The position numbers and the translations under genes are program-made. Shown piece by piece: positions 42,801 through 62,666 of a stretch of DNA of 64,000 nucleotides (within the stretch, counting starts at the first letter, position 1; each line of letters begins with the position of its first letter). The notes beneath the pieces were generated by a model, which searched no databases, was not told the origin of the DNA, and worked only from the letters and a program-made list of their open reading frames with translations. Origin of the DNA: Eutreptiella sp. 'Long Island Sound 2002' (lineage: Eukaryota > Euglenozoa > Euglenophyceae > Eutreptiales > Eutreptiaceae); NCBI GenBank assembly GCA_964036045.1, contig OZ038378.1, forward strand, positions 21,894,941 to 21,958,940. Reading direction: 5' to 3'.

Positions 42801-45800
42801 TTCTGAGGTGCCAGACCCCGACCCACCCAACCCACTTTCTTAGCCCACGCAAACTGCACCCTGTTTTGCGCATCAAACGCGCAGAGAAGGACTGGTTCAC
42901 AACAGTGCAAAAAAACTATTTTTTTGGATATTTGATAAACGTGTTTTTGGGCATTGTGAAATAAATTGTTTTTTAGGCATTACGCAACTCCGTGTTCCGA
43001 AATGGGACGTTTTTTATATTTTATGGTGCTCTGAGTGCGCGAGGCCTCGCGCACCCGAGATATTCGAGGTAGAGTTTACTAGGAAACCATAAAAACCGCA
43101 AGGACTGGAGGTTGTGTAAGTACACAGCTTTCACACGTTATTAAAACTCACGTTGTATTGACGAAGGAGCATTGAAAGTGTATGACGGCCAGACTTCCCA
43201 TGTTCGGTGAAACACATACACTCTACAATAAAAATAAAATACAAATTTAGGCATCCGGAGTGCGCGAGACCTCGCGCACTCTGATCACGTTATGTAATGG
43301 TTTACGGGGTGGATATGACGCGTAAGACTGCAGGTGCAGTACCATACTGACAAGCACATTTGATTTTTGCGGTGTAGGTGTGTGTAGACACAGTGTTGGT
43401 CACGTATGACATGGTACACAACATTGTCCAACGGAAACAATCAGTGCGCGAGGCCTCGCGCACTCAAACCACACAAGGAAATGAAAAAGCGGGCAGGTCA
43501 GGCTACGCCGGCATTTACATTCCCTTTCAAGGCTACCACTTGTGACTGTCGATTATACATCGGTAACCTTCGTCGTATCCGTCATGGGGGTCAGGGGAAT
43601 GATTTTCTTTTTTCCAACAGCCACTCAATGGGAGACGTGTCCAATTTTAATGGCGGCCGTAGCCTTCGCTGCCCGAAGGATAGGGTTTTTTTTTTCAACT
43701 GGGATTAAGGAAGAAAACGGAACAGGAGATTGTGGTTGGAAAAACGGTTTTCGGTTACTGGCAACGGAGCGCACGCAGACACCAAATACAAATTGCGACG
43801 GCAGCGTGCGCACTAATAATGACGACAGGAAAAGGCCAGCTGTTTTCAAACACGCTGTTTTTAAAGAACGCTGTGCAAAACGATAATTAAAATATGTGAG
43901 CAAATTCAATTTCACACAGAAATACGCAGAATGCCGCTTCGCGCCAGAAAATCAGTAACGCATCGAATGATTGCAGAAGTAAGCAAAGGAGCAGCAACAC
44001 TAAGAGAGGCATGCGTTGTAGAACAAGCATACCAAACAGATGACGACTTGTGGAACGGACTGAAACGAAACGACCTGGCGGCGCAACTGGTGTTAACATT
44101 TGCACAGCGACTCAGGTTCAACAAAAGAACGCGACACAGTTTACCAGCAGCTAAAAGGCAGGAGGACAAGCGTTGGGTGCGCATTTTGCGACAAGAGGGC
44201 TGGAACCTGTACCTGTTGATGCGTCAACGGGCAGTACCAAACAGAAAAAAACCGGGAAACACGACAAGGTACCTAACACAAACAGAAAGACGAACGAAAG
44301 TACGACTTGGGCAAGCAGACGCCTGCGCAGATACAGTGGACGAATAGGCGGCAGCAGCACTTAAAGCAACGTGGACACTGGTGCTTGCATCGTGTTGCGT
44401 GCTGTGGATCGACAACTGGTACCGGGCACAATACACGACACACCCAGACGAAAGTGACCGGTCGCAAAACTGTACTGCAATGGCAGTACTTCAACTAAAG
44501 CAGAGACCAACGTACTGGGCAGGACACCCAGCCATTGAGGACCTGGCAGCACGCATAACGACAGTCGCACGGGCTATGCAACAGCGCGAAAGGAGAATCC
44601 ACCAGACTCTGCGTGACATGGGATATGTGGATGGTTGTGTACCAGATACCGGAAATGTGAGAGCACCGTTGGATGTGTGGAGGGATACAACGACCGTGCA
44701 GGCACCGGTGTGGCGCCTGTTTGCCCTGTCGAAAGAAAAGGTCACCTGCGGTGTCGGTCTGTTAAACTTGTTGCAGTTTGCGAAGGACACAGCACAACAA
44801 ACAAACAGGGTTTTGCCGCTGTTGGTTGACGAAAACATACACTACAGGATACTAAAACTGTTGTATGGGGCAAAGAACCAACGATGGAACATGCGTGCCT
44901 AACTCCGGTACGTACCTGTAGTTTACGGTGTTTGGCACGCCTACAAGTTTGTTGTTACACCGACTTTTCGGGTGTTCTGGCCCATTCTAACTTACCTACG
45001 GAAAGGCCTGCTACGCCCGGGTTCAACCATACTATCATACCCAAAACTGATAGTTATGGAAAAAACTATTGCTGCGCTTATGCTTGCCACAACCAGGATA
45101 CTACGCCCGTTTCGTCGCAAGGCACAGGCTGCAACTGCAATCAGTGGTCGTGACACGGCGCATGCCAACAGGGCAGCAGTGGCAAACGGAGTGTTGTGTT
45201 TGTTGTCGGAATGGTGCCCGTTGTTGTTGTACCTGGGTCACCTGGTACGGGAGTGCACCTGGGCGGGGGAAAATAACAGTACGGGGTCGCGGGCCGAGGA
45301 GGTGTTGCAGTTGAGTTTGTGTCTATTGCAGAGGTTGCGACGCGGACCGTGTGACACCGTTCTGAAGTACGAACGCACCATCATGTGCACATTGCTGTAC
45401 AACAGCAAGTGGCACTAGGACCTGCCCGGTCAGGCACACTCAGAGGAGTTTGGTGAGGGGATGTTGAGCAAGCTGGTGCGCGAGGAGGCAAAAAACACCG
45501 GTTCTGTTACTGTTGAGGAGGTGGAAAACCATTACCTGTTACTACAAGTTGGTCCAGGTGGCAAACGCGTGGGTGTGCAAAACGTTCCCAAGAACCTGGT
45601 ACTTGGTCACTGCGTGCTGGATGCCCTCATTGACCAAAAGACAAACCCCACAAACCAACTGAAACGGAAACTGGATGCTGCTGTGGGGAGGAGGACAGAC
45701 ATGGATGCCGACAGACAGGAAGCAGCAACGCGCAACGTGCGCCAACGCGTGCGGTAACTGACACCCGCAGTGCGCGAGGCCTCGCGCACTAAAGGACACG

Positions 45801-48800
45801 AGAAACGGGTCTGTAATGCGATGTGAGTGCGCGAGACCTCGCGCACTGAGTAGATCGCTAAGTCCCGTGGAATTGGTCGCAGCAAAGGCGGTTGTGTAAC
45901 AGATTTGCGAAAACAAGTGGCAAAATGGCGTTTCGACTGAATTCAGAGCCCAAATGACCGTGTTTCGTGTCATGCCATCTGCCCTTTTTAGGTATTTTTT
46001 GGCACCATGAGTCAACCAGGGTCGCCAAAACGTAGACCACCAGACGCAGCGGCCGTGGAGTCATCACCAGGAACCGACCAAGGGGACACGCCGAAGAAAG
46101 GGCGCAAGAAGAAGGGGGATAAGAAGCCGATACCGGAGATGAAGCTCACAGTTGACATTCAACAGTGGCTGCGGAAGGAGAATGGAAAAGCAGTGAAGAC
46201 AAAGATTCTTGATTTGAAGATTGACAAGACCAAGGAGCGGGGACAGATCCGAGCCATCAACCACGACGACGTTGGCAAAAAAGTGGCGGGATACCAAGCG
46301 TTGCCGCCACCCGGACCGTTGCGCGTAACCGCATGGGAGGACAGTGGTATGACTCGCTTCGCATTTTTGCATAAGGTCGACAACATTTCTTCTCCCTGTT
46401 GTGCTGTGGTACATGATTTGCGTTGCAGATGGCTCGCTTTACGTTCTGAATGGGCAACACGGGACAGAAACATGCAGGGCGATTCAGGACATGCGGCTCG
46501 CAGAAGGCAAAGAACTGGAGGACTGGCAAGAATATTGCTATGTTGACATTCTCAAGTACGAAACGCCTTGGAGGATCCGGGCCAAGGTTGCAAGATTACA
46601 GCAAGCTGGCAGCCAGTCTATGACGTGGATTCCGCTGTCCGATGCGCTAGACAACATGTTGTTGTACATTGAGGACCATAAGCGGGAAAAGGAACCACAG
46701 GATTTCGAACGGTTCAAAACTGCTGTTGTCCAGGTTGCCGTCAACTCTGCGTTTCTTGCCCCCGAGCAGTTGGAAGAACCAGGGCACACAGTATGTGTTG
46801 GTGCCTCACACGGTCGCAGTGCGCAAGGTCTCGCGCATTCTATGGCACGGTTTTCCTTCGTAGGACGCGACATTCAAGCACTGGAGGGACATCACCTCCT
46901 TGGCATACTACTGCGGCCACGACGCGGTTACTGGTATGAGGAACCTCGAGGGTAAGAGCAGGAAAGAGGACGTCACAAAGAATGCCTTCAAGAAGCTGGA
47001 GGGGCTGCATCTGCCAAGTTTATTGCAGAAGGTCTGCGCGCATATGAACCTGAAGGATGCGACCATACGCAGTACCCAGGCCCACATTGACGCGTTGATT
47101 ACGGAACAATGGGTTACTTTCCACCTTGACCATCCGGACAATAAGTATTTCGTCAACCAAACCGCAGGTAGGCGTCGGTTTCGCAGCGTCAGTGCGCGAG
47201 GGCTCGTGCACTCTCCCGCCTTTTCCACATCTACACAGCTGCCGATGCGAAGATCCGAGCAGAAGTCGCAGCACTGGGCACGTCGCAACTGAAGATTGGC
47301 CTCGGAAACTGGGGTTATTGGGAAGACGCAAAAAGTTTGAAGTACCGGTCGCCGTGGCCAAAGTGGAAAACGTTGACCGGTGCACCTCTGTGGCGGACTG
47401 GGGACAAGGGAGCACCTCCGTCACCGCAGACCCTGTCCGTGCGGAAACAACTGCAAAGGAAGGCTGAGGCACCAGCATCGGCGCCGGCGACACAGACACA
47501 GTTGAGTACTGGCGAAGTGATCAATGTCTCCAAGCAGGACGACCAAGGGACCAAGTGCACTTTGACAGCATGCCGTATTGAGGATATCGAAGATACACCA
47601 CCGGCCCGTTTCCGGGACTTGCAGTACCCGTTGTGGGTTGTCAACGCTGACCTTTTCGTGGAATATGACTCTGCAGGATTCGTTCCTACGTGGTTGTTCG
47701 ATGTGATGATGTTGGGTAAGGATCTCATTTTCTATGGCGACACTGATGTGGTGTACCGTATTGGCCGAGACATTCAGAGGCTCTGGCGTATCGAGAAGGA
47801 GAATGATCCAACTACAGTGCCTTTCTATCATGCCCAGTTGCCGGTATACTCTTGGATGTCGGGTTCCGTCACAACCAACATGTATCAGTTTGACGAGCAC
47901 ACCATGTGGATTGGAACAACGAGTCGCTGGGATAAGCAGGTATATCTGCCGCTTTCGCCGTTTTTGACGCCGTTGAGTGCACGAGGCCTCGCGCACTGCT
48001 GTCTCAGTTATTCGTCTGTATTCATCGCATTTGCAGTTGCCCAACTATGTGACGTATTCCGCTGGAGATTTCGAAGAGATGCAGAACAAGAACCTCGGTG
48101 GCTTCATGCCTCTGATTCACGTGCTGTGGTACCTTGACAAGTATCTGGTAGATTGTGGGAATGCTGATGCAGTGGTTGTTGTGGATGAGACGCCGGCCAT
48201 GGCCGCAAAGATTACGATGTCGGACGGGAGGACTAAAGTGGCGTTTCTGGCTGTGTCAGCGATCAAGCAAAAGGACCTTAGCAATGCCGTTGGAGGTGCT
48301 CTGCAGCATGCCATCATCATGCGGTACATGTTGGAAGACGATCAGACGGAGCAGGGAGCGACAACTGCAACTTGGGATACTCAAGAAGAGTGGCTTCTGC
48401 GTGGCATTCCACTCTGGGTTTTGGACAGCAACCGAGGTCACGAAGGGCACCAAAAGGTGCATGCTGCTGAAGCCGCCCAAGAACAGATCGTGACTGAGGC
48501 ACCCGTTGACGAGAGTGAGTCCACTGCGCCTAAGCCTGCACCTATCCTGCCCAAGCTGAAGAAGACTGCCCAAGTTGTACCAACTCGGGGTACTGCAGCC
48601 GGAAAAGGAACCCCCTCGGGTAGCAAGAAGCAGGCAAAAGAAAAAGGAAAAGAATCGGACAAGCCGGAAGAATCAAACAATGACGATGGCGACGAGATGA
48701 TCCCGAGCAAGTACTGGAGCCACAGCGCAAGCGGAAGCGGGCGCCCGCCTCTCACTTTGATGCAAGTCCCGATGATTCGGGTAAGGACCAGCCAAAGTTG

Positions 48801-51800
48801 AAAGCGAAGACTGCTGCAAGTGCTAGTGCAGAGTTCAAGCCGCCATCGCGTTCTGGTGCTCAGCCATCCCGTGGTACCGTTACCTCCCCAAGTGGGGGAA
48901 GTTCGGTGGCAAGGAGCCTGAATTCCAGGTTGGCTAAGGTTGCAGGACCGAAGAAGAAGTAGGTCACGATTAACCCAGGTGTTTTTCTCTTTTTTTGCAG
49001 TCATGTGTGCGCGAGGTCTCGCGCACTCGCCTTCGACGCGAATGCATTTATATGTCCTTAAGGGCTTGTACATTTTTGCCGAGCTTTTATTTCAGAGTTT
49101 GCATGTAGTGCATTTCGTGTCGTGTTTTCGTTGCCTTCTGTACACAATTGTTTCCACGACCTTGAGTGCGCGAGGCCTCGCGCACTGAGGGACAGAAAAA
49201 AGTAATTTATTTCGCAGGACAAACTTTGGTACAACTGGAGTTCCACAGAATTTCATTTTTGAAAATGAGCTTCTGAAAAGGCACGTGCTTGTGGGATTTT
49301 GAAATACAAAAACAACAACATTGGTAATACGCACCCTTCAAATCAATCAAAATAATAATTTATTTTGGTAAAGAAAATCTTAAAAAAAGCAGCAACTTGC
49401 GGAAAAAACAATTTTTTTGGTGATGTCTGATTCATGCGTGCTGCAAATGTCCAAAAAGAATAGTTTTTTTGGTTGCCATTTTTTGTGTCCGCCCCTTCCA
49501 AAAGGGGGTGCAGTTTGCGTGGGCTAAGACTTTATGGAGCCAATTGTCAGTGAATGTGGTGTTGCTCATGTCTAATGGTGTTTGCTTTGTACTTGGAGGT
49601 TGGTTTTCATAGGGCATTTCTTTTGTTGCATCCGTCACAGTTGCATGCACAGAAATGCAGCAGCAAATTGCGACCGCTCGCCCAACAATGACTACAACAG
49701 CATCGGGGTTCTAAGTCTTTCTTGAAAATCCATGAAGACAAAAGGACAGCAGCTTAAGTCATGCATGCCAGGGGTGGATATAGTGGGGGGGGCGTCCCCC
49801 CCAAGCCCCCCCCCCCCCCGATGACGATTACCATTACGATTTACCCGTGACTGAACTAGCAATTTTGCCAGCAGTTTCACAAGAGGACTGATGGCCAGAA
49901 AAAGCGCCAGAGCAGGATTTGAACGCAAGGCAGTCAATTCGTGAGCCTAGGCATATACCGCTGTACTACTGAGCCATCCTTCCAGCCCTCAACACCAGAC
50001 AATACATTGCACAGGGGTTGGTGTATCCCATGACGACAGTCCACACAGTGCAATCATTTCTTGACACATTTTGCCAAAATGGCTTGCAATTCCGAATCAT
50101 CTGTGCCTGAACTGCCTGAGCTAATCGTAATTGCAATCATTCCGTCATCACTGCCTCCTGGCTCAACAGCCCCCCCCCCCACCCCACCCCAACCTTGGTA
50201 ATGTCGTCACAATCATATCCACCCCTGATGCATGCAATTGCAGCTCCCAGAGGACCCCATGAGGACCCCATGAATGCGCTGCATTCCCATGTATGCTGCC
50301 AAGCCCAGAGGTGCAGCTTACGTAGAGGGATTAGACCATCCTACACCAGTTGTACTACGCCGTACCACCAGCCTTCATGGAACCCCGCGCCCCACCACAA
50401 TGCAGTGTCCACGAGAACCCGCAGGAGCCTCCTCACCACCTTACTAACACCCTGACTAAAAGAGGGGCGTGCCCAGCCACAAGCCGCCATGCTCCAGGGC
50501 ACGAACTTGCAATCAGTACACAGCCATGCAGAGTGTGGGCAGGCACACCAGTGTCCACTTCTCCGCTGGTAAAATGCGCATCCCCCGAAGGAGGTCCTGC
50601 TCATTCTCCAGGGCACACAGTTTGCCAACGGCTACATCGATAGCCCATTGGGTGGCAGGGAACCGCTCTGACCCACAGCGTAGTGACTTGTTGAGCGGCA
50701 CATACGCTGGTCCAGTGTAGAGACGCAGCCCTGAAAATGTACGCATGGATGTTTGTGTATACAAGCTGCGAGTACACAAGGGTTGCATGAAGGGTCAGGG
50801 AGCGAGAGGCACTCCCACACACGGCCCCACAGAGTTTGGTGCAACGGAAGGACGAGGGGGCAAGCACAGGGCCGTGAAGCTGCCGGACAAAAGCTAGGAC
50901 AGACCCAGATTACAATGTGAAGATTGCAGCTAGTACGACAGTTTTTTCCATTGTGGTACAATTGTATACACTTGTTTGTGTCCTTTTGGCTGCCGTTTTC
51001 TGCCAAAACAGGGCAAATGTGCAAATTGATCTTTGACACCATCACACCATCAATGTGAACACTACGGCCCTGGCTTGACGTGCAAAGTGTGGAAAGGATC
51101 CCAGCCCAGCCTGCGATCTGCCCTGCAATGTGATTGGCATGAGGAAATGACATGCACAACTGTTCATTCACTATCAGACCATGAACTCACCCCAGACGTG
51201 GCATGCACAGGCACATGCACATGCACCAACCAAACCAAAGGCAAAATCTCAGGACAAGCATATGTGCTGGCACATGTGGAGACATGGCAAGCATCTCATA
51301 CCAACTACTTCAGCTGCAGTGAGTCCCACAGCCTTGGCCAATTCAGTATTCATGAATGTCTCTGTTGTCCAGCCTTCGTGCCCTATAACATATGCAAAAA
51401 GAAAAAAAGCAATGAGTATGTAAGAGCCCCCATCACAACTGAGGGGTGAAGAGTCACAATGGAGCGCTGAATGAACATTGGACATAAAAAAATGGGGAGG
51501 GAATGCGGAATGGTGTACACTTCAGTAGCGTGTCTCATTGTTGAGAAGACCCAATTGTTTCAGCATGGCTGCAATCCTCGCCCGGCTTGTGAGTCCAGAA
51601 GGGGCATGGGCACCTGTGGAAAGCAAAAGCAATCCAAATAAGTCTGAGAACCGTCCTCTGTTTGCAAATTTGGCCTCCATCGGGCTTCACATGGACCACT
51701 ACTTCGTTGTGCCCCAGCCAATTACCCTCAAATAAACCAAAGACCCCCAGCACACCCAACTGCCACCCAAGCTCCTGAAACACCTGCGGTGTGTTCTGGG

Positions 51801-57800: not shown

Positions 57801-60800
57801 TCCAAGGTCTTGGGTGCAGGAAATTCATTGGGGACAAGAAGGAAGAATAAGTGATGAATTTTGTGCAGCGTTATGAACTATCTTTGTCCGCCCTGCAAAC
57901 ATTTAAGAAAATTTGTCCCACTGTTTTGGTTTGTTTCAATGCATATGGCACCCACCATGGACTTCCTCACTCAAAGTAGAAAGACATACCTGTTTTGGAA
58001 ATTTTTGACAGTTTTGGACTGTATCTACCTCCAAACCCTTGTGTACAACTTCCCCAACGGCCTTCACACGCCCACAGAAAACACCAAAGTGCTAAATCGC
58101 TTGCCAATGCGCTAGTGCACGACTGGTTGTGTTCCCCCCCTTCACCGCCTTTTGCCACACCAAACCTACGTGGACCGGCATCCGTACATACAGCGGGGGG
58201 GAGGGGGACTGCGGGGGTCAAGCAAACCCTTGGTCAAACCTCGGTGTGCTCAAGGGAACACCCTGGGCCCACCCTAACCCCTACGGAGCAGGTCATCCTT
58301 CAGACGCCGGCGACGTGGTTGTCATTGTGGGCTATCCTGACTAAAACCAAAAAAAACGGTCCTCAGGGACAAGCCTGGCCGTGGACGTGCAGCACTGGAG
58401 GATCATGACGGGAGAGCGGCCTTCATGCACCCAACCACCAAGGCCGGTATGTGCAGCCGTACAACTACAAGCGCCATTTGAAGTCCGGGGAGACCTGTCC
58501 ATCTGCCGGACAAACGATGCGGACAGAACCTCTGGAAGACTGCACTGTCCAACGAAGTCGTACAATGAGAGCTTCAGAAACCAGCTCCCCTAGAGAAGGC
58601 GTGACTTTGTGTCTGGCACCCTCCAGAATACCCTCAGCCAACGAGCCGCAGCCGACCAAGATGGTGACCGTGCTGGAGAATTGTCACCGCTGTGGGGCTA
58701 TCTTGAAGACGGACAGAGTGGGGGTCGCGCGCTCAAACCGGGCCTCCGCAGCCCCGATCCTGGGGATTGTGCCACCTCTCTCAACCCTCAGTCGGTCATC
58801 ACAGAAGCCACACCTTCACAACGGTCTTCGGGCGGGAGTAAGTGACAGGATTGCGGTGCAGCTGGGTTGCCAGGTTCCTGATGGTCTGCATAGTTAATTC
58901 ACGGAACTCTGAGTAGTCGGCGACAAATGACTCCCCGTCCTCAGTGGCATCAGAGTCATCCCAACGGGCGAACATCTGCTGTGCAACAGCCGTTGGGGGC
59001 AGCCCCACGGCTTCCCCCATGGTACGTGCAGCTTCCAGGACCTCCTGTGGGCAGCACAGAGAGAGGGATAGGGGAGAGGGATGGAGCATGCTGCTGCACG
59101 GTCCGCCGTCACAATGGACTGTCAAGGAGAAGCCAGGGGAAACGGTCGGATGTCCAGACGACGCCAGTAGATACACTGAGGCGTCAGGGAGCCCCCGCAT
59201 TGAAAAACAAAAAAGGGAAGTGGGTGACTGCACACAAAATCGTGTTCGGGTGGTAACCAACGGCGATTGGGCAGTGGCCGACGGCGGTGGAAGAACAAGG
59301 GAAGGCGCTCGGACGGCAGCCGACGGCAGAAAAGGGCATGTGGTTGATCCCACAGCACTCCGGCAGTGATCGTACCCTGACCCCGGGGGGAGGGGGGGGG
59401 GGACTCCGTTGGCTGCAGAGATTTGGAGTTGGGCAGACAGCGATGACGCGTGCAAAGCGAGCCCAAGAGCTCAAGCCTTCCTGGACCTGTGGCCCAAGGA
59501 AAGCCCCTGCCTGTTGCTGTGTGGCGCTCGTGTACCCTCCACCCCACACCCCTTTTGCCAGACCGGCGACAGCCAGGGGGAGGGAAAAGGTCGACATGGA
59601 TCCAGGAAATAGGGCAAGCAACCTCTGCCTCTGCACCTACCCCCCCCCCTACCCCCTCTGTCGGCCCAAATTTAAGCCACCACAAAGCGAGGGTGCAAGC
59701 CGTGGGCTGGCCTCCCGTTGGGAGCCAGGAAACGGGGCGGCAGGCTGTTGCTACCCTCCCCTCCCCCCCTGGGGGAAAGGGGAGGCCAGGGAGAACGGCT
59801 GCCCCTCCCCCACAAGCAACAAGGCCTCAACCGGTCCCGGGATCACAGGTAAAACCCCACCGCGAGACAAACGCCAGGAAGTCCCCGTTTACCCCGCGCC
59901 ATTTCCCACCACAGGTCCCGGTGGTTGAGTGGTTATGCATCCAACCACGCATCCAAGAACCCCCAGTATGAATCCCGGGAGCATAAGTTGTACCTCACCT
60001 GAGACAAACGCCTCGCAGTCCCAGTTTTCCCCGCGCCGTTTTACCATCACGGGTCCTGGTGGTTGAGTGGTTATGCATCCAACCACGCATGCAAGAACCC
60101 CCAGTTTGAATCCCGGGAGCATAAGTTGTACCTCACCTGAGACAAACGCCTGGAAGTCCCAGGCCTTTGTCCAGCCCCCTACCATCCTTTCTCACCCGGC
60201 ATCAGGGAGCACAGGTTGTACCACACGTGTGACAAACGCCTGGAAGTCCTCAAGGCATGCCCTGGCCCCTGTACATGCTTGTCTGCCAGGGAATCGGGTC
60301 ACAGCCGCCGTCCCGGAATGTCGGGGCCAGCAGCTGGTCGCAACTGTTATGCGGTGCCCATACACACGCGGGCTCACTACCACTACCACTACTCCCCCCC
60401 CTACCCCTGCGGGGGTGGGAACAAAGCGAGGTGCTGACCCCTCCCCCCGGGCAGTTGGCATCCCCTCACCCCAGAGCACGGGAGCACGAACGGGCCACCG
60501 GCAACAAAGGGTTGCACCCCGGGTAACTGGGCTAGGCGCGGTGTGACTGTGTGACCCGATGTGCCTCGGGTAGTGACAGGATCTCGCGTGAGCACCCACA
60601 CACACAGGCACGGCAGCGTCTCCCGCCCACCAGCGCTTCGGCAAGGTCCGTGGGGGCTGAGACCGTTCGGCATTGGCACCGGACCAGCAGGCGGCTCAGC
60701 CCCGGTGTCCGGCACAGAAGGCAGCCACAACCCGGCACCCTGCCCCTGTGTGAGGCCCGGTCCCAACCCGACCCAAACCCCGCACCTACCGCCCCCCCTC

Positions 60801-62666
60801 CCCATCCCCCTCCCCCGGGTACAGCGCCCAGGTTCCCAACAACTGCCCCAGCCGACAGCACCGCGGCACAATTGGTCCCATACCGTTGTGGCGGTGCGGT
60901 GGGAGGGGGCTGAAACAACAACCATCACCGCGTAGGCGTTGGTGGAGTCGCCCTGCATGTGCACCAAGACCAGGGCTGTCCTTAGCACCCACCAAAAAAG
61001 GGCCCGGCCTGTGGTGCACTCAACCTCCGCAGAACGCCAGCCAACGAGTAACTGCTGTCGTTCATCGGCGGGTGGCGCTGGGTGGGCACGGGTGCCAACT
61101 GTGAAACGGAGGGGTGCTGCTCCTGACGAGACGTTTGGACTGGGTGTTGGGGGATGGGCTGGGGGCTGATGCGGGCATTCCCGGTGTGGCGCTCCCCTGT
61201 CAGTGCCTTCAGTGCGACATGGGGGGGTCCTCTTGTGAATGGGGTGTCGTGCTTTTGCTTCCGTTGTCTGTCCGGTGGCATTACGCCTGCAATGGCACAA
61301 GACATTGGTGTGAGGGCTCCCACCAATGTGAGAGGCACTGCCCTTTGGGCGTGGACCATCTGCACAGACCTGGGAGCCTCCCAGCGACCCGGTCCGGTGC
61401 AAAACCTCCTCATCCGAGACTTTCTGAATGTGTGGCGGGCACTCCCCAGCCAGCGCTCCCCGGCTGTGTACTCAGGCATCCCCACACAGCGAAGTTTGGA
61501 GGGTACTCTGATGTGGGAACTGTACCACAGGGCCGGGGTGGGTCCGGGTCACCTGCTTGAAGGAGGCGGGAAGGGGCCATCAAGGTGGGCACGGTGTAGT
61601 GCAATCGAGCCATGTGTTGCTGCTCCGTGCACTTGCCCGCTGCTGCTCAGGCCTTTCAGGAGATGATTGCGCCAAAAGGTGCGTGCGCGCTGCACATGCC
61701 CTGCGAGGCGTCACATTGATGTGTATTGTCTGGTGCTCTGCTGCGTGTCTTCCGTTTGCAGCCACAGGCTGCGCTGGGGCACTGGCCCGTGACCAGCGCC
61801 ATGAAAGGGCGGAGGACATTCTTTTTGGGCCCGCCGGTTGGGGGCTGGCCCCGCGGGGCGTGACCCTCCCCCCTTCCAATGCGTCCCGTCAAGCGCCAGC
61901 CCAGGGGCGTGGCTGTGGCTGCCGCTGCAGTGCGTCACTCCCAACACCCCCTCACACACCTCCTGCCCCCAGACAATGGGCCAAGAGTTCGATAACGAAA
62001 CGGTCAAACGGCGGATCCCACGGGCTGTGCTCATGCGCAAGACATGCTCAGACACGCGACCCGTGAGGCAAGGCCCGCCCGAACCCCCGGGACACACTAC
62101 CCCTGTACCCCCCCCCCCACACACACACACTCTCTTAGACACCAACACCCCCTCATCGACCCGCTTCCCCCCGACGGACACACTTTGCGGGTCAGCATGG
62201 CACTCCCCTTGTCGCGCCGGACGGCCAAGAACTGCGCTGTCAGGGCGTCGTCCAGCTGCACGTCATCCTCCAGCAGCCGCAGCGCATCAGCCCCGTCCGC
62301 CGTGACCACCTCCCGCTCGTCGCCCTCGTCTTGGGCCAGGGCGTCCGCCAGTTTCAGGAACAGGACCCGACACGCCTGAATGAACTCGCGCTGGTCAATG
62401 GTGTCGTCCTCGTTGGGGTCGAGCCAAGAGAACACCTCCTGCTCCCCGTCCGGTCGCCCCATCAGCTGCGCGATGTCGCGTATGAGCGGCATCACGTCAT
62501 TGAGCGTCAGGCGGCCGGTGCCGTTGACATCCAACTCGGAAAACCGATGGGCCATGGAGTCTTCGAACACGGCGATGTTGTTGACGAAGGAACGGATCAC
62601 GGAGCCTGTGATGGAGGGGCCGCGGGCCTGGCTCTGGAGCCCCGCGTGCAGCATCGGCAAAACCAC
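19304..62666 (-). CDS. Gene 2: EF-hand / ADP-ribosyltransferase / coiled-coil protein (about 19 exons, 5' end not found)
   Basis: Exons in coding order: 62666-62184, 59044-58814, 56859-56632, 54545-54468, 52595-52367, 51382-51302, 50730-50549, 38536-38225, 35998-35884, 33240-32988, 31865-31661, 29331-29109, 28183-28050, 27838-27772, 23075-22870, about 22730-22632, 22283-22152 and 19510-19304, possibly with small ones missed. All junctions keep the frame except those of the 22.7-kb exon. The protein (about 1,150 residues) starts with an EF-hand pair (about residues 30-110), then a weak EF-hand, a mono-ADP-ribosyltransferase fold (about 440-600) with R, STT and ExE motifs, coiled coils (about 730-950) and a C-terminal EF-hand pair before TGA. 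Known ARTs of this type transfer ADP-ribose from NAD to proteins; calcium control through the EF-hands is inferred. A 12-kb intron inside the ART domain holds a transposon. The substrate, the cellular site and the true N-terminus are unknown. Confidence 0.65.
20001..20255 (+). mobile_element. MITE-like inverted-repeat element
   Basis: The ends 20001-20024 and 20232-20255 are inverted repeats of 24 bases with one mismatch (CACGTG, A or G, CAGTGATGGATCTAATT). Between them are dC/dG runs and many short GTCACA/TGTGAC motifs, several forming palindromes (GTGACGAGGCGTCAC; GTGACATGTCAC). There is no coding capacity. Short length, terminal inverted repeats and no ORF fit a MITE. The left flank is a dG run, so a target duplication cannot be defined. 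Confidence 0.65.
20706..20965 (+). repeat. GT-rich minisatellite (GGCGGTTGGTGGTT family)
   Basis: About 260 bases are built from short units such as TTGGCGGTTGGTGG and contain almost only G and T on the plus strand, with G runs of two. Repeated glycine/tryptophan/leucine reading frames on the plus strand are shadows of the repeat. The array is bordered on both sides by similar sequence: GGCGGTCCTTAACGGG plus a run of A before it (20632-20654), and GGCGGTCCTTAAGGG, TGCTTAAC plus a run of A after it (20970-21004). Confidence 0.7.
22152..22283 (-). CDS. Gene 2 exon: EF-hand of the C-terminal pair
   Basis: Follows TCTCCCACAG and ends CGGCAG|GTGTGTC; 44 codons, phase 0 to 0. It encodes IFAEVDVDASGILTLPKLGN, in which DVDASGILTLPK is an EF-hand loop with D at 1 and 3, S at 5 and G at 6 but lysine at 12 instead of glutamate. 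The helix WDVTYVELQKMLRQ follows. Confidence 0.7.
22632..22730 (-). CDS. Gene 2 exon with unresolved phase
   Basis: Between CTGTCATAG and CAACCAAG|GTGGTGG one frame reads VPWLELVEKLCALDLEEEEE followed by LWEDILPRSYNQ, an acidic helix with the codon usage of the neighbouring exons. That frame does not match the phase 0 ends of the exons on either side. Another frame does (arginine- and tryptophan-rich) but is a less plausible protein. Either small exons are missing on both sides, or the less likely frame is used. Confidence 0.4.
22870..23075 (-). CDS. Gene 2 exon after the coiled coils
   Basis: Follows AGCCTCCAG and ends CAGCAG|GTGAGC (strong donor); 206 nt, phase 1 to 0. It encodes SSGRFRANLMQDTYRARAHE, YMRTGTSPGPAAGNPYART and PDWARYAEVEITLDLLQQ. 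Confidence 0.65.
23750..24600 (-). mobile_element. Possible retroelement fragment
   Basis: A minus-strand frame (about 24200-23970) encodes LPLSGRDVVDPTADNEIMAS, EGYKAAAAVYDAALASQ and WGVEDDITVYANGDGEAADT, with compositional features of a gag-like protein. A second frame follows at 23936-23754. Base composition and the CCCCTCGGCC-type segments recall the gypsy remnant at 13.8-14 kb. No LTR or protease motif is visible, so the assignment is weak. Confidence 0.25.
24898..24968 (+). repeat. (CA)n microsatellite
   Basis: About 35 CA dinucleotides with three interruptions by AA. Shorter (CA)n tracts occur at about 2322-2348, 23229-23252 and 33836-33870; (TG)n tracts occur at 51801-51824 and 51908-51995. 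Confidence 0.9.
24969..27771. other. Intron of gene 2, no assigned exon
   Basis: This part of the intron between 27.77 and 23.08 kb has several open frames on both strands around 26590-27590. The longest on the plus strand (26646-27356, 236 codons) has no recognised domain, and a minus frame at 27588-27253 overlaps it. A dG run lies at about 26341-26354. Nothing can be called with confidence. Confidence 0.35.
27772..27838 (-). CDS. Gene 2 exon: short basic helix
   Basis: Follows GTGCCGCAAG and ends GGCAG|GTGGGAG; 67 nt, phase 0 to 1. It encodes KELAVKMRKMQAQLMDGRLR, a basic, methionine-rich helix. The start is the least certain of the boundaries, because the frame is open further upstream. 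Confidence 0.5.
28050..28183 (-). CDS. Gene 2 exon following coiled coil 2
   Basis: Follows CACCCGCAG and ends TATCAG|GTGCTCG; 134 nt, phase 1 to 0. It encodes DIGLDSDVLDPTWFDRKSAL and HAALQREAAHLQGSAVSSNK. The helix in the second half may extend the coiled coil. Confidence 0.6.
28509..28536 (+). repeat. (GA)n microsatellite
   Basis: A run of AG dinucleotides with one interruption lies in the intron between the exons at 29.1 and 28.2 kb. Confidence 0.8.
29109..29331 (-). CDS. Gene 2 exon: coiled coil 2
   Basis: Follows CCCACAAG and ends TCCTG|GTGTGCC; 223 nt, phase 0 to 1. It encodes KEAAERQLEVLKQAMEQFAV, EKHTLESEQRKWEQARAEWD and LQRLRRELQEVQALKELFEN. This is the most typical coiled coil of the protein. 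Confidence 0.75.
30650..31490 (+). pseudogene. Unassigned plus-strand frames, possible decayed transposase
   Basis: Two adjacent plus-strand frames (30657-30953, 30919-31488) lie in the intron between the exons at 31.66 and 29.33 kb. The first contains CQSVVSHKGKLRGHMVQCPH, which resembles the second half of a BED-type zinc finger, but the first cysteine pair is not clear. The second has no recognised motif. A broken hAT-like element is possible, but an accidental frame cannot be excluded. Confidence 0.2.
31661..31865 (-). CDS. Gene 2 exon: coiled coil 1
   Basis: Follows CCACAACAG and ends CTGCAG|GTGCTCC; 205 nt, phase 2 to 0. It encodes a highly charged helix: AEEALQKEGEYWNQQFVKHR, EDHQKAQMLQDLEMAEQQLH, KERIEWLQ. 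Heptad-like spacing of leucine, methionine and tryptophan supports a coiled coil. Confidence 0.7.
32988..33240 (-). CDS. Gene 2 exon: acidic and alanine-rich segment
   Basis: Follows CTTGCCAG and ends AGCAG|GTCAGCC; 253 nt, phase 1 to 2. It encodes SVEAYTMEDAHDVDGFSRPH, an alanine-rich helix (VQDWAAAAATGQASEY), and a methionine- and glutamine-rich stretch (AAMAEMQDQELHCRHTIEG). Confidence 0.65.
34317..34411 (+). repeat. Tandem GGTCCCCCA...TGGGGGACC hairpins
   Basis: Two consecutive inverted repeats with arms GGTCCCCCA and TGGGGGAC(C/G), separated by GGTTGCCAAGTGAC. The second pair (about 34378-34404) has perfect 9-base arms and an 8-base loop. A related half (CAAGTGACGGTCCCCCAG) recurs at 34767-34784 with AACGACAAGG repeats behind it. 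Confidence 0.65.
34507..34644 (-). CDS. Candidate last exon of an unknown gene, lysine-rich C-terminus
   Basis: After TTGACAG the minus strand reads 45 codons to TAG at 34509-34507: PHPEKAKPPPKSAALSIPVE, then SGERVQEFKVKWSRTKKFST and KPVKE. The composition (lysine and proline rich, good codon usage) looks like a real C-terminal tail. It lies inside the gene 2 intron between 35.9 and 33.2 kb, and its start phase does not match the exon at 35.9 kb. It could be a nested gene, an alternative end of gene 2, or a pseudogene. Confidence 0.3.
   Translation of the reverse strand, partial: PHPEKAKPPPKSAALSIPVESGERVQEFKVKWSRTKKFSTKPVKE
35884..35998 (-). CDS. Gene 2 exon after the ART domain
   Basis: Follows GGTGTGCAG and ends GGAG|GTATGAG; 115 nt, phase 0 to 1. 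It encodes VFQFILRFPWDPDKQCPILT and then KGWMQLANELLLSLNG. Codon composition and both splice sites are good. Function of this segment is unknown. Confidence 0.65.
36265..36335 (+). repeat. Dispersed repeat (AGTCATTCCCA...CACAGGGC), copy 1
   Basis: It reads AGTCATTCCCAAACCGTGG, then TTTGGAGGGTGCTC, then CTGATGTGGGTATTGTAACA and CAGGGC. The same order recurs on the minus strand at 40147-40079 and, with a deletion, on the plus strand at about 61470-61532. Class unknown. Confidence 0.6.
38225..38536 (-). CDS. Gene 2 exon: ADP-ribosyltransferase domain, catalytic half
   Basis: Follows TTCCGCAG and ends CGCAAG|GTACGA; exactly 104 codons. It encodes DPGFVSTTLDVDIA (the S-T-S/STT motif that follows a glycine and an aromatic residue) and VQWVSQYPCETERLLPSSTL, matching the SQYPxExE pattern that carries the catalytic ExE of arginine-type ARTs. 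Together with the Arg in the previous exon, all three R-S-E elements are present, so the enzyme is likely active. The residues between the exons join without a gap relative to the family. Confidence 0.8.
40079..40147 (-). repeat. Dispersed repeat (AGTCATTCCCA...CACAGGGC), copy 2
   Basis: Reverse-orientation copy of 36265-36335: AGTCATTCCCAGACCGTC, AAGTTTGGAGGGTGCTCTCC and TTGTAACGCAGGGC align without gaps apart from scattered substitutions. Confidence 0.6.
40238..41000 (-). other. Unassigned protein-like frames inside the 12-kb intron
   Basis: Minus-strand frames at 40609-40238 and at about 41000-40773 look protein-like: one contains RRVVLLDDHFELETAKHGVV, KWTFTTLLKTPANPH and DEAVHQEYIAYWVLLIGAKI, the other IPATQEEMADQLFILFG and QFSVDVVAVHHDTG. 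Splice sites with matching phases for insertion into gene 2 were not found, and the ART fold needs no residues here. They may belong to another inserted element or a nested gene. Confidence 0.3.
41001..42833. other. Left part of the 12-kb intron, no firm gene
   Basis: Open frames on the plus strand at 41188-41589 (contains NHTVCIIQYDSKNQIVIPIL and LWLRHMFRWKDLKNTYPSLK) and on the minus strand at 42115-41627 are not linked to any domain. Nothing is seen between about 42240 and 42833. Confidence 0.35.
42834..42838 (+). repeat. Target-site duplication ACTTT, left copy
   Basis: ACTTT immediately precedes the left terminal inverted repeat. The same five bases immediately follow the right end at 49529-49533. 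Confidence 0.75.
42839..42861 (+). repeat. Left terminal inverted repeat
   Basis: Starts CTTAGCCCACGCAAACTGCA and continues CCC. It matches the complement of 49506-49528 at all 23 positions. Similarity continues weakly (TTTTG) and resumes in the subterminal block at 42908-42934. Confidence 0.9.
43035..43464 (+). repeat. Palindrome cluster A (three copies)
   Basis: Copies at 43035-43054, 43259-43280 and 43443-43464 of the palindrome AGTGCGCGAGGCCTCGCGCA plus CT. The first lacks the outermost T, and the second has A for G in the centre (GAGACCTC). They lie in the leader region between the left end and the first long frame. A ten-base-pair stem forms on either strand. Confidence 0.9.
43480..43930 (+). 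other. Leader of the transposon, upstream of the first long frame
   Basis: Two short overlapping open frames (up to 43708 and 43886) have no recognised motif. The frame used by the next gene is closed here by three consecutive stops at about 43814-43822. The region probably contains the promoter, but no motif can be named. Confidence 0.35.
43931..45757 (+). pseudogene. Transposase-like frame with three in-frame stops
   Basis: One frame runs 609 codons from ATG at 43931 to TAA at 45755-45757, broken only by TAG (44345), TAA (44900) and TAG (45416). All four segments keep one frame and similar composition, so they are one former or unusual gene. The first segment is basic. In the middle, PLLVDENIHYRILKLLYG is followed about 20 codons later by VVYGVWHAYKFVV and an aromatic-rich stretch (FRVFWPILTYL). 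An acidic D-E pair followed by a G-x-WH-x-x-K segment resembles putative transposase domains with a GDQxT...GxWHxxK pattern (for example DUF6589-like proteins), but this is pattern memory only. The last segment ends in a basic tail (ATRNVRQRVR). Each stop is one C-to-T change from CAG or CAA. Either the copy is inactivated by transitions, or TAA/TAG are read through. Confidence 0.5.
45769..45847 (+). repeat. Palindrome cluster B (two copies)
   Basis: Copies at 45769-45790 (perfect consensus) and 45826-45847 (central GAGACCTC) lie between the stop of the transposase-like frame and the start of the ParB-like gene, 57 bases apart from start to start. Confidence 0.9.
46007..48962 (+). CDS. ParB/sulfiredoxin-like protein of the transposon (five exons, one frameshift)
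   Basis: Exons 46007-46346, 46429-46790, 46864-47167, 47239-47939 and 48037-48962; introns are 82, 73, 71 and 97 nt, all GT-AG with matching phases (1, 0, 1, 0). About 870 residues. A basic N-terminus (PKKGRKKKGDKKP) precedes a ParB-like core, in which SLYVLNGQHGTETCRAIQ at about residue 115 corresponds to the GxHR-type loop of the ParB/sulfiredoxin fold; here the arginine is glycine, so nuclease or CTP-binding activity may be altered. Long helical regions follow. The C-terminus is Lys/Ser/Pro rich. Near 48700 the frame must shift by one base: before it reads NNDDGDE, after it EPQRKRKRAPASHFD, a nuclear localisation-type signal, to TAG at 48960. This is a one-base deletion or a sequencing error. 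Introns 2, 3 and 4 each contain one palindrome. A DNA-binding role at those sites is inferred, not shown. Confidence 0.6.
46347..46428 (+). other. Intron 1 of the ParB-like gene, without palindrome
   Basis: Donor GTATGACTC, acceptor TTGCGTTGCAG, 82 nt. It is the only intron of the gene that lacks the element's palindrome. Removing it joins WEDS to DGSLYVLNG in frame. Confidence 0.6.
46791..46863 (+). other. Intron 2 of the ParB-like gene, with palindrome
   Basis: Donor GTATGTGTT, acceptor CTTCGTAG, 73 nt, phase 0. The palindrome at 46818-46839 is the most degenerate copy (GTGCGCAAGGTCTCGCGCAT). It occupies the middle third of the intron. Confidence 0.7.
47168..47238 (+). other. Intron 3 of the ParB-like gene, with palindrome
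   Basis: Donor GTAGGCGTC, acceptor CTACACAG, 71 nt, phase 1. The palindrome at 47191-47212 reads GTGCGCGAGGGCTCGTGCAC, with one change in the centre and one in an arm. Confidence 0.7.
47940..48036 (+). other. Intron 4 of the ParB-like gene, with palindrome
   Basis: Donor GTATATCTG, acceptor GCATTTGCAG, 97 nt, phase 0. The palindrome at 47976-47997 reads GTGCACGAGGCCTCGCGCAC, one change from consensus. Confidence 0.7.
49006..49186 (+). repeat. Palindrome cluster C (two copies)
   Basis: Copies at 49006-49027 (central GAGGTCTC) and 49165-49186 (perfect consensus) lie downstream of the stop codon of the ParB-like gene. The first follows a T-rich CTTTTTTTGCAG that resembles a splice acceptor. 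Confidence 0.9.
49506..49528 (-). repeat. Right terminal inverted repeat
   Basis: Perfect inverted copy of 42839-42861. It is followed by the second ACTTT (49529-49533). Confidence 0.9.
49529..49533 (+). repeat. Target-site duplication ACTTT, right copy
   Basis: Identical to 42834-42838 and directly adjacent to the right terminal inverted repeat. Confidence 0.75.
49898..49984 (-). mobile_element. tRNA-derived SINE, minus strand
   Basis: The reverse complement reads GGATGGCTCAGTAGTACAGC then GGTATATGCC (A box region) and GCGTTCAAATCCTGC (B box region) with tRNA-like spacing. The acceptor stem does not pair. It lies about 370 bases beyond the transposon, inside the same intron of gene 2. Confidence 0.6.
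50549..50730 (-). CDS. Gene 2 exon: ADP-ribosyltransferase domain, first half
   Basis: Follows CATTTTCAG and ends CACTG|GTGTGC. It encodes LRLYTGPAYVPLNKSLR, the usual opening of R-S-E class mono-ADP-ribosyltransferases (LYTGPxYxxxNxxLR), then a helix and LLRGMRILPAEKW, where the arginine occupies the place of the catalytic Arg of the first ART motif (YRG in relatives). It ends in phase 0, and the fold continues directly in the exon at 38.5 kb. Confidence 0.7.
51302..51382 (-). CDS. Gene 2 exon: short exon before the ART domain
   Basis: Follows TGTTATAG and ends GTTG|GTATGAG (a good donor); 81 nt, phase 1 to 1, which is exactly what fits between the exons at 52.4 and 50.6 kb. It encodes HEGWTTETFMNTELAKAVGL and TAAEVVG. 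Confidence 0.6.
52367..52595 (-). CDS. Gene 2 exon preceding the ART domain
   Basis: Follows CTGGTAG and ends CCAAG|GTCTGC; 229 nt, phase 0 to 1. It encodes AIKLTSWRPAFKRMLEDSQE, then a tryptophan-rich stretch (MEAEWCSTEFQGADFWSY) and KGGFDVRDQ. It lies directly ahead of the start of the ADP-ribosyltransferase fold. Confidence 0.6.
52880..53110 (+). repeat. TGTGGACACTGTACACA minisatellite
   Basis: About ten diverged copies of a roughly 20-base unit (GTTGTGGACACTGTACACAT with variants). The unit itself is partly palindromic (GTGTACA/TGTACAC). Confidence 0.75.
53640..54180 (-). mobile_element. tRNA-like SINE within GATACACA-type repeats
   Basis: The reverse complement of about 53865-53945 has GTTGTTCAGTTATTGAGGCA (A box region) and GTGTTCAATTCCCTG (B box region). 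Around it, degenerate units (GATACACA, GGGACACA, AAGCTTGGGATACA) recur at 53660-53750 and 54060-54150. They may be the body of the same element. Confidence 0.45.
54468..54545 (-). CDS. Gene 2 exon: short linker
   Basis: Follows CATGTGCAG and ends CTGCAG|GTTTGC; 26 codons, phase 0 to 0, encoding MRTFAAAEDGNDNARPTHLD and then YLNLLQ. Its boundaries were chosen because the phases fit both neighbours; a longer exon starting further upstream would break the frame. Confidence 0.5.
55609..55695 (+). repeat. Direct repeat, copy 1 (ACCCTTGGGTACAACTT...)
   Basis: AAACCCTTGGGTACAACTT, CCCAACGGCTTTCACACGCC and CACAGAAAACACCAAAGTCC recur with few changes at 58030-58115. The copies are in the same orientation, 2.4 kb apart, in two introns of gene 2. 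Confidence 0.7.
55777..56300 (-). pseudogene. Ankyrin-like pseudogene fragment
   Basis: The minus-strand frame 56181-55777 contains AEWVKRRQSDQTLGHLALIP then AHAFEIQGLKWLLDRR, similar to an ankyrin repeat (G-x-TPLHLA ... A-x-x-G-x-x-x-LLxxG). A second frame just upstream (about 56300-56150) contains CTEWDDSITAILYCRF and appears to be the same gene shifted by a frame. It lies in the gene 2 intron between 56.6 and 54.5 kb and fits neither exon phase. The remnant nature is inferred from the frame change. Confidence 0.35.
56632..56859 (-). CDS. Gene 2 exon: helical segment
   Basis: Follows GTGTTCAG and ends GAACAG|GTCTCG; 76 codons, phase 0 to 0. It encodes SFRGNHIRQLLNNDQNFDDF, an alanine-rich helix (APVEAVSAALRVLQANAQ) and GILAGMLSEIKTSEQ. 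No family is recognised for this segment alone. Confidence 0.6.
57370..57600 (+). repeat. TGCAC-rich minisatellite
   Basis: Many closely spaced TGCAC, GTGCA and TTGCACTTTGCA motifs with CACA spacers. The unit is short and irregular. A similar but smaller cluster occurs at 4835-5010 inside gene 1. Confidence 0.6.
58030..58115 (+). repeat. Direct repeat, copy 2
   Basis: Second copy of 55609-55695 (AAACCCTTGTGTACAACTT, CCCAACGGCCTTCACACGCC, CACAGAAAACACCAAAGTGC). The flanks are unrelated, so the repeat unit is about 85 bases. Confidence 0.7.
58814..59044 (-). CDS. Gene 2 exon: degenerate EF-hand
   Basis: Follows CCCACAG, ends AAG|GTGTGG; exactly 77 codons, phase 0 to 0. It encodes a helix (EVLEAARTMGEAVG), QQMFARWDDSDATEDGESF and DYSEFRELTMQTIRNLATQL. 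The acidic loop flanked by helices resembles an EF-hand, but its spacing is not canonical, so calcium binding is uncertain. Confidence 0.65.
59045..59860. other. Intron DNA of gene 2, no exon
   Basis: Contains a dG run at about 59384-59401 and GC-rich low-complexity frames only. No splice-bounded frame with matching phase was found. Confidence 0.4.
59865..60240 (+). mobile_element. Tandem tRNA-derived SINE copies, 138-base period
   Basis: Two full units begin near 59911 and 60049: GGTCC(C/T)GGTGGTTGAG, then TGGTTATGCATCCAACCACG, a B box (AGTATGAATCCC or AGTTTGAATCCC), GGGAGCATAAGTTGTACC and GAGACAAACGCC. A partial unit precedes them (from about 59865) and another follows (60206-60250, GGAGCACAGGTTGTACC...GACAAACGCC). 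The spacing between the GGTTGAG motifs is exactly 138 bases. A and B boxes suggest a tRNA-like promoter in each copy. Confidence 0.7.
60250..62183. other. GC-rich intron DNA of gene 2, no exon
   Basis: Long open frames on both strands here reflect the GC-rich composition. A minus frame ending near 61290 at ATTGCAG looks exon-like but overlaps the dispersed repeat at 61470-61532, and its phases do not fit. Nothing is called. Confidence 0.4.
61470..61532 (+). repeat. Dispersed repeat (AGTCATTCCCA...CACAGGGC), copy 3
   Basis: Shorter, more diverged copy: GGCATCCCCACACAGCG, AAGTTTGGAGGGTACTC, TGATGTGGGAACTGTACCAC and AGGGC. Compared with copies 1 and 2 it lacks about eight bases after GCTC. Confidence 0.5.
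62184..62666 (-). CDS. Gene 2 exon: N-terminal EF-hand pair
   Basis: Follows CCCTTCAG and ends at GCAAA|GTGTGT; 161 codons in phase 0. It contains two EF-hand loops: DVNGTGRLTLND and the near-canonical DPNEDDTIDQRE (acidic or polar residues at positions 1, 3, 5 and 9, isoleucine at 8, glutamate at 12). Each is preceded by a helix (HRFSEL, EVFSWL). After them comes an alanine- and aspartate-rich helical stretch. It is the clearest single exon in the window. The exon before it was not found. Confidence 0.75.

Follow-up and report, generated by a model that had tools for sequence, protein, structure and literature searches.

Ten conserved palindromes in a recently active family of predicted DDE transposons from Eutreptiella

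Introduction

In Arabidopsis, VANC21 of the VANDAL transposons binds motifs in the introns, intergenic regions and terminal non-coding regions of its own element (PMC5735166). The Ectocarpus transposon Sola1-1_Ec32 carries a ParB-methyltransferase accessory gene which is proposed to bind and modify its own element (PMC12477816). Here we describe a transposon of the euglenophyte Eutreptiella sp. 'Long Island Sound 2002', found in a 64,000-nucleotide stretch of contig OZ038378.1 (positions 21,894,941 to 21,958,940; hereafter the window, with coordinates counted from its first letter). It carries a gene for a predicted DDE transposase (gene 1), a spliced accessory gene (gene 2) and ten copies of a 22-bp palindrome. 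Of the known systems, VANC is the closest in layout: both combine an accessory-protein gene with an element-specific motif that is scattered over non-coding parts of the element, introns among them. The two differ in that the Eutreptiella motif is a palindrome at fixed places, whereas the VANC motifs are described as short, directional and arranged in tandem repeats, and the transposase is of another type. The likeness to Sola1-1_Ec32 is an accessory gene read as ParB-like, in the present element by motif only; gene 2 matches neither a methyltransferase nor a ParB profile, and the transposases are different.

A DDE transposon is a known kind of element, and the one described here has the inverted ends, the duplication length that is constant from site to site and the predicted RNase H-like core of a cut-and-paste transposon. 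Its lineage and its ten-palindrome design are absent from the catalogues and literature that we searched. P element duplications are 8 bp long; the present element differs from the Drosophila P element (6pe2) by its 5-bp duplications, its accessory gene, its ten palindromes and the lack of a P-type or THAP match. From hAT elements (Hermes, 6dwz), including hAT5 with its 5-bp duplications, it differs by its CTTAG... ends, accessory gene and palindromes, and by matching no hAT profile. Most members of the CMCT clade (CACTA, Chapaev, Transib, Plavaka) have 5'-CA..TG-3' ends, and Zisupton (KDZ) duplications are 8 bp, according to a published account (PMC12730594). The ends of the Eutreptiella element read CTTAG..CTAAG, not CA..TG, and its duplications are 5 bp, not 8 as in Zisupton and its kin. 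Inspection by eye of A5 alone revealed neither of the CMCT motifs, C(2)C and H(3-4)H, between the second D and the E.

Results

The window element is a real transposon and belongs to a recently active family. It spans 42839-49528 (6690 bp) and, as the initial annotation had described, ends in perfect 23-bp terminal inverted repeats (42839-42861 on the plus strand, the end that is matched genome-wide, and 49506-49528 on the minus strand; chance expectation 0.00), which lengthen to 24 bp when the flanking T/A is included. Identical ACTTT target-site duplications border it at 42834-42838 and 49529-49533 (both unstranded). The second inverted block that had been claimed inside the ends is also present: an A/T-rich subterminal segment (42911-42980, plus strand) has an inverted counterpart at about 49400-49475, scoring 87 where 500 simple shuffles average 46 and reach 65 at most. 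Composition is unlike the surroundings, as first noted, with a GC content of 0.508 in the element and 0.548 in the rest of the window. The CpG observed/expected ratio is 0.95 in the element and 0.58 in the rest of the window, a contrast weaker than the window implies, since the pooled flanks of 11 other loci reach 0.775.

With up to 3 mismatches allowed, the 24-bp end matches the host genome (G000; 2.28 Gb in 2205 contigs) 1305 times in forward and 1306 times in reverse orientation; a reversed control matches 1 and 0 times. We fetched 20 regions, 17 with both element ends and three with a single end. Six of them (L011-L016) were picked for having both ends listed about 6.6-6.9 kb apart, and the other 14 are the next listed ends on contig 1 (four full, seven short and three unpaired), so that the share of full-length copies in the sample is not a genome estimate. 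All 100 ends listed are perfect matches, and the sample thus leans to young copies. A further eight regions of 3 kb each (L003-L010) lie within places already sampled and were left out of the counts. With the window included, the sample comprises 11 full-length elements (6551-6860 bp) and seven short ones (1208-1212 bp).

Five-bp duplications are exact in 17 of these 18 two-ended elements and off by one base in the remaining one. ACTTT and AATAT occur twice each and the other 13 duplications once each, with a bias toward A...T (first base A in 11/17, last base T in 13/17). Pairwise identity among full copies ranges from 0.854 to 1.0, and five copies (L012, L013, L015, L022 and L025) are mutually at least 0.999 alike while sitting in five different duplications; the family has therefore moved recently. 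A paralogous empty site for L025 aligns without a gap over 380 bp at 87% identity. This site lies within repeated, possibly coding sequence common to the flanks of L024 and L025 (87%). Another apparent case, L024 against L022, was discarded for a 24-bp gap at the junction, and none was seen for the window's own insertion among the fetched loci, no genome-wide search having been made. The three unpaired regions (L020, L021 and L023) each have a perfect end with no partner in the 9.5-9.9 kb fetched and are possibly truncated or interrupted copies; L023 carries seven palindromes.

Gene 1 (43931-45757, plus strand) had been read as a long transposase-like frame. The likeness to a transposase stands; the uninterrupted frame does not, for the window copy has three in-frame stops and a deletion, lacking about 60 residues that its relatives have. 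A change of genetic code as the cause of the stops was rejected: relatives and five of the 11 full-length copies are open under the standard code, the latter keeping a frame of 665 amino acids. A structure model of the gene 1 product (pLDDT 76, pTM 0.71) contains a predicted RNase H-like core, and conserved D, D and E motifs align across its relatives. In the VIA comparison, which informs only on the fold families present in the VIA list, the best matches are the P element (10.4), Hermes (7.7), RAG (6.0) and Transib (5.6), and unrelated rows of the same list score 3.9 and below. Together with the copies of the ends, the varied duplications and the empty site, the predicted core bears out the initial view of an unfamiliar transposon with 5-bp duplications.

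The relatives of gene 1 lie on short contigs from ENA and JGI and make up a deep, separate family. Pfam includes profiles for hAT, P, KDZ, CACTA and Transib/RAG, as well as for P-type and THAP domains. Among 14 members, no P-type or THAP row appeared at E values up to 10, and no hAT dimerization profile was matched in Pfam by the members searched, although very remote members of either group could escape such searches. Pfam likewise gave no KDZ row for 14 members. The initial annotation had found no match to a known superfamily with 5-bp duplications, and no profile now assigns the element to a known superfamily; Repbase is outside the catalogues searched, and a prior entry there is possible. 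We found no description of such an element in the titles and abstract openings of the open-licence PMC literature, and no paper text of that literature contains the palindrome core or the end sequences. As to a viral or prokaryotic origin, viral_contigs and genome_contigs hold no confirmed transposase relative, and nothing in viral_contigs matches the 22-bp end sequence exactly.

The element contains a perfect 22-bp palindrome, AGTGCGCGAGGCCTCGCGCACT, which had gone unnoticed. A search of the window at up to 3 mismatches gave ten copies, every one inside the element (chance 0.00). Three lie to the left of gene 1 (43034-43055, 43259-43280 and 43443-43464), one just 3' of it (45769-45790), one a little further on (45826-45847), three in introns of gene 2 (46818-46839 in intron 2; 47191-47212 in intron 3; 47976-47997 in intron 4) and two near the right end (49006-49027 and 49165-49186); they are given without strand. 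None of the ten falls in coding sequence (random placement, 8.8e-6). The 11 full copies have palindromes at matching places save where these are deleted, with 9 or 10 per copy. Across the genome, 7782 places match with no more than 2 mismatches, a number that takes in some sites of the second family described below; the control has 0.

Palindromes change less than the DNA around them. On average they diverge by 0.035 and other non-coding sequence by 0.081; each palindrome has four CpGs, and at CpG positions the values are 0.039 and 0.108. Nine of the ten diverge less than their own 30-bp flanks, one of these nine barely. Two exact matches in viral contigs overlap open frames and were taken as chance; one (L001:5234-5253) is inside a phage frame that reads like a ParB-methyltransferase.

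A second family has the same design. In the P0049 search, 67 of 8590 candidates were scored, with a top identity of 100% and many stop-free. Amino-acid identity between the two families is about 45%. Two full family-2 elements (L043 and L044), each of 6393 bp, have a 29-bp perfect inverted end beginning CTTAGGC and duplications of 5 bp in both cases (TCACA and ACGTA). Each carries ten palindromes with the same 18-bp core as in family 1. The pair just outside this core differs between the families: it is G-C at 102 of 107 sites in family 1, at 21 of 21 in the short elements and at 0 of 101 in family 2, where L043 and L044 are counted twice, being the same copies as L031 and L032. In family 2, the outer pair is T-A or A-T in 71 of the 101 and an unpaired A-A or T-T in 30.

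Spacing is kept as well. Family-2 palindromes lie 195 and 423 bp inside the left end and 347 bp inside the right one, at places where L012 has 196, 421 and 343 bp; the pair that follows gene 1 is 55 bp apart in family 2 and 56 in L012. When the two families are compared by blastn, 10 of 12 rows are palindromes and the remaining DNA hardly aligns. Family 2 also has a counterpart of gene 2, at 31-47% identity. Which of its introns bear palindromes seems to differ between L043 or L044 and L012, the total staying at ten; the family-2 exon borders are approximate.

The seven short elements lack both genes and keep the ends and three palindromes. Compared with a single full copy, L012, their terminal 29 bp are 90-100% alike and their palindromes 82-100%, and the spacers are 53-67% identical. 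Over shuffles, similarity of the left spacer is weak (z 1.6-3.1) and that between the palindromes is nil (-0.1 to 1.0). One palindrome lies 195-199 bp inside the left end and the other two 498-500 and 342-344 bp inside the right end; the corresponding distances in L012 are 196, 502 and 343 bp. CpG ratios are low (0.57-0.80). The short elements look like old internal-deletion derivatives that have kept ends and palindromes.

Gene 2 (46007-48961, plus strand) consists of exons 46007-46346, 46429-46790, 46864-47167, 47239-47939 and 48037-48961. It had been described as a spliced ParB-like gene. Splicing is upheld by four GT-AG introns, all kept in 11 of 11 full-length copies: intron 1 (46347-46428), which has no palindrome, and introns 2 (46791-46863), 3 (47168-47238) and 4 (47940-48036), with one each. 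The ParB label is not borne out by any profile, and the N-terminal part resembles a ParB/sulfiredoxin domain by eye only. The sole weak PDB row is pArc, which is not ParB, and no methyltransferase profile was matched. The product has 879-881 amino acids in three translated copies, and the mapped exons are stop-free in seven of the 11 full copies. The relatives of gene 2 that were found number only three, each spanning the C-terminal part. Codon comparisons point to purifying selection on both genes, with dN/dS between 0.12 and 0.50 in gene 1 and between 0.26 and 0.65 in gene 2 (six comparisons, all against L012, broken copies included). In the window, a frameshift near the 3' end of gene 2, with the three stops in gene 1, makes this copy coding-dead with intact ends. 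Overall, the ends, flanks, subterminal block and introns of the initial annotation hold; its long frame and its ParB label are not confirmed.

Discussion

Our data suggest a lineage of DDE transposons in which the palindromes are cis-needed sites for a dimer, with the gene 2 product as the likeliest binder, a reading to which we give a probability of about 0.7. Gene 1 would encode a DDE transposase, cutting at the CTTAG... ends and inserting with a 5-bp stagger. The palindromes would be dyad-symmetric binding sites for a dimeric protein, and very probably they are needed cis sites. We infer the function of gene 2: its product perhaps binds the palindromes and would be the likeliest candidate, since no further gene was found, selection acts on gene 2, and gene and palindrome diverge in step. 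For mobilization, or to keep the element active, sites along its whole length would have to be occupied in cis. The 1.21-kb elements may be mobilized in trans, because both kinds of site, ends and palindromes, are kept; as these elements lack both genes, their palindromes would point to a cis need for such movement. The palindrome-dependent step may be synapsis, marking or anti-silencing.

Several observations weigh against this reading. The palindrome at 49006 diverges more than its flanks (0.093 and 0.041), that at 45769 hardly less (0.045 and 0.052), and, with five of the 11 full-length copies nearly identical, about seven lineages underlie the mean divergences. In the short elements, the right spacer is still similar to that of L012 (z 5.8-7.6), so that ends and palindromes are not the sole trace. 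A ParB profile for gene 2 was not found in Pfam, PHROGs or NCBIfam, and a partial, C-terminal model of its product is unusable (pLDDT 31). The absence of end divergence in the sample is uninformative, because copies were selected by perfect ends. Finally, the gene 1 model gives a fold group only, one common to the P element and hAT, and the element may be a very diverged branch of either.

On that last account, the lineage would belong, strongly diverged, to the P element superfamily or to hAT, some members of which have other duplication lengths, and only its sequence would be unfamiliar. We hold this to be possible, if not the account we prefer. The P element and Hermes top the fold list, and hAT families with 5-bp duplications are on record (PMC12730594). 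Speaking for a separate lineage, two overlapping protein sets, of 12 and 14 members, yield no passing Pfam family, and the relatives make a deep family of their own.

Alternatively, the transposase itself could bind the palindromes, as internal or subterminal synapsis sites, and gene 2 could have another role. The strongly conserved distances from both ends, and the retention of palindromes in short elements that have no genes, would fit a part in transposition itself. Transposases, however, usually require sites near the ends, whereas these sites run along the whole element, introns and intergenic sequence included, far from the ends. We consider this somewhat doubtful.

Anti-silencing by analogy with VANC, in which the gene 2 product would bind dispersed non-coding motifs and keep the element unmethylated, strikes us as equally tentative. 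The layout is as for the VANC21 sites (PMC5735166), palindrome CpG positions diverge less than other non-coding CpGs, and CpG ratios in full copies are 0.84-0.95 against 0.775 in the pooled flanks. Against these stand the CpG-poor short elements and the CpG transitions, which are 1.0- to 3.4-fold over other C/G transitions in the seven copies counted. Because of this excess and the low CpG of the short elements, methylation may well reach the element, and CpG richness is weakened as proof that methylation is missing.

A more specific proposal is that of a new DDE superfamily that marks its own DNA: a ParB-fold dimer of the gene 2 product would load on about ten parS-like palindromes dispersed over introns and other non-coding DNA and coat the element, and transposition or escape from silencing would require this marking. 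Gene-less passengers would for that reason keep palindromes, and the two families would use diverged pairs of palindrome and protein. We regard this proposal as unlikely. If marking did occur, this would be a eukaryotic element carrying its own DNA-labeling system. That the palindromes are neutral, a small repeat spread within the element that gene conversion has homogenized or that has had too little time to diverge, is very improbable: copies are many and single sites were apparently gained or lost between the families, but sequence and spacing are conserved where the other DNA hardly aligns, and the outer base pair is family-specific.

The element adds a recently active transposase lineage that is missing from the searched catalogues. 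The system offers a natural test of dispersed palindrome use, the short elements for the need in cis and the two families for coevolution of site and protein, and it can also separate roles of the palindromes in transposition from roles in anti-silencing.

Elsewhere in the window, the sole Rfam match at gathering scores is a fragment at 8290-8610 (plus strand) that matches eukaryotic large-subunit rRNA (59 bits). An open frame at 62097-62666 (minus strand) encodes an EF-hand pair, a 138-bp tandem repeat lies at 59864-60162 in about two copies, and a perfect ACCTC array occupies 976-1089.

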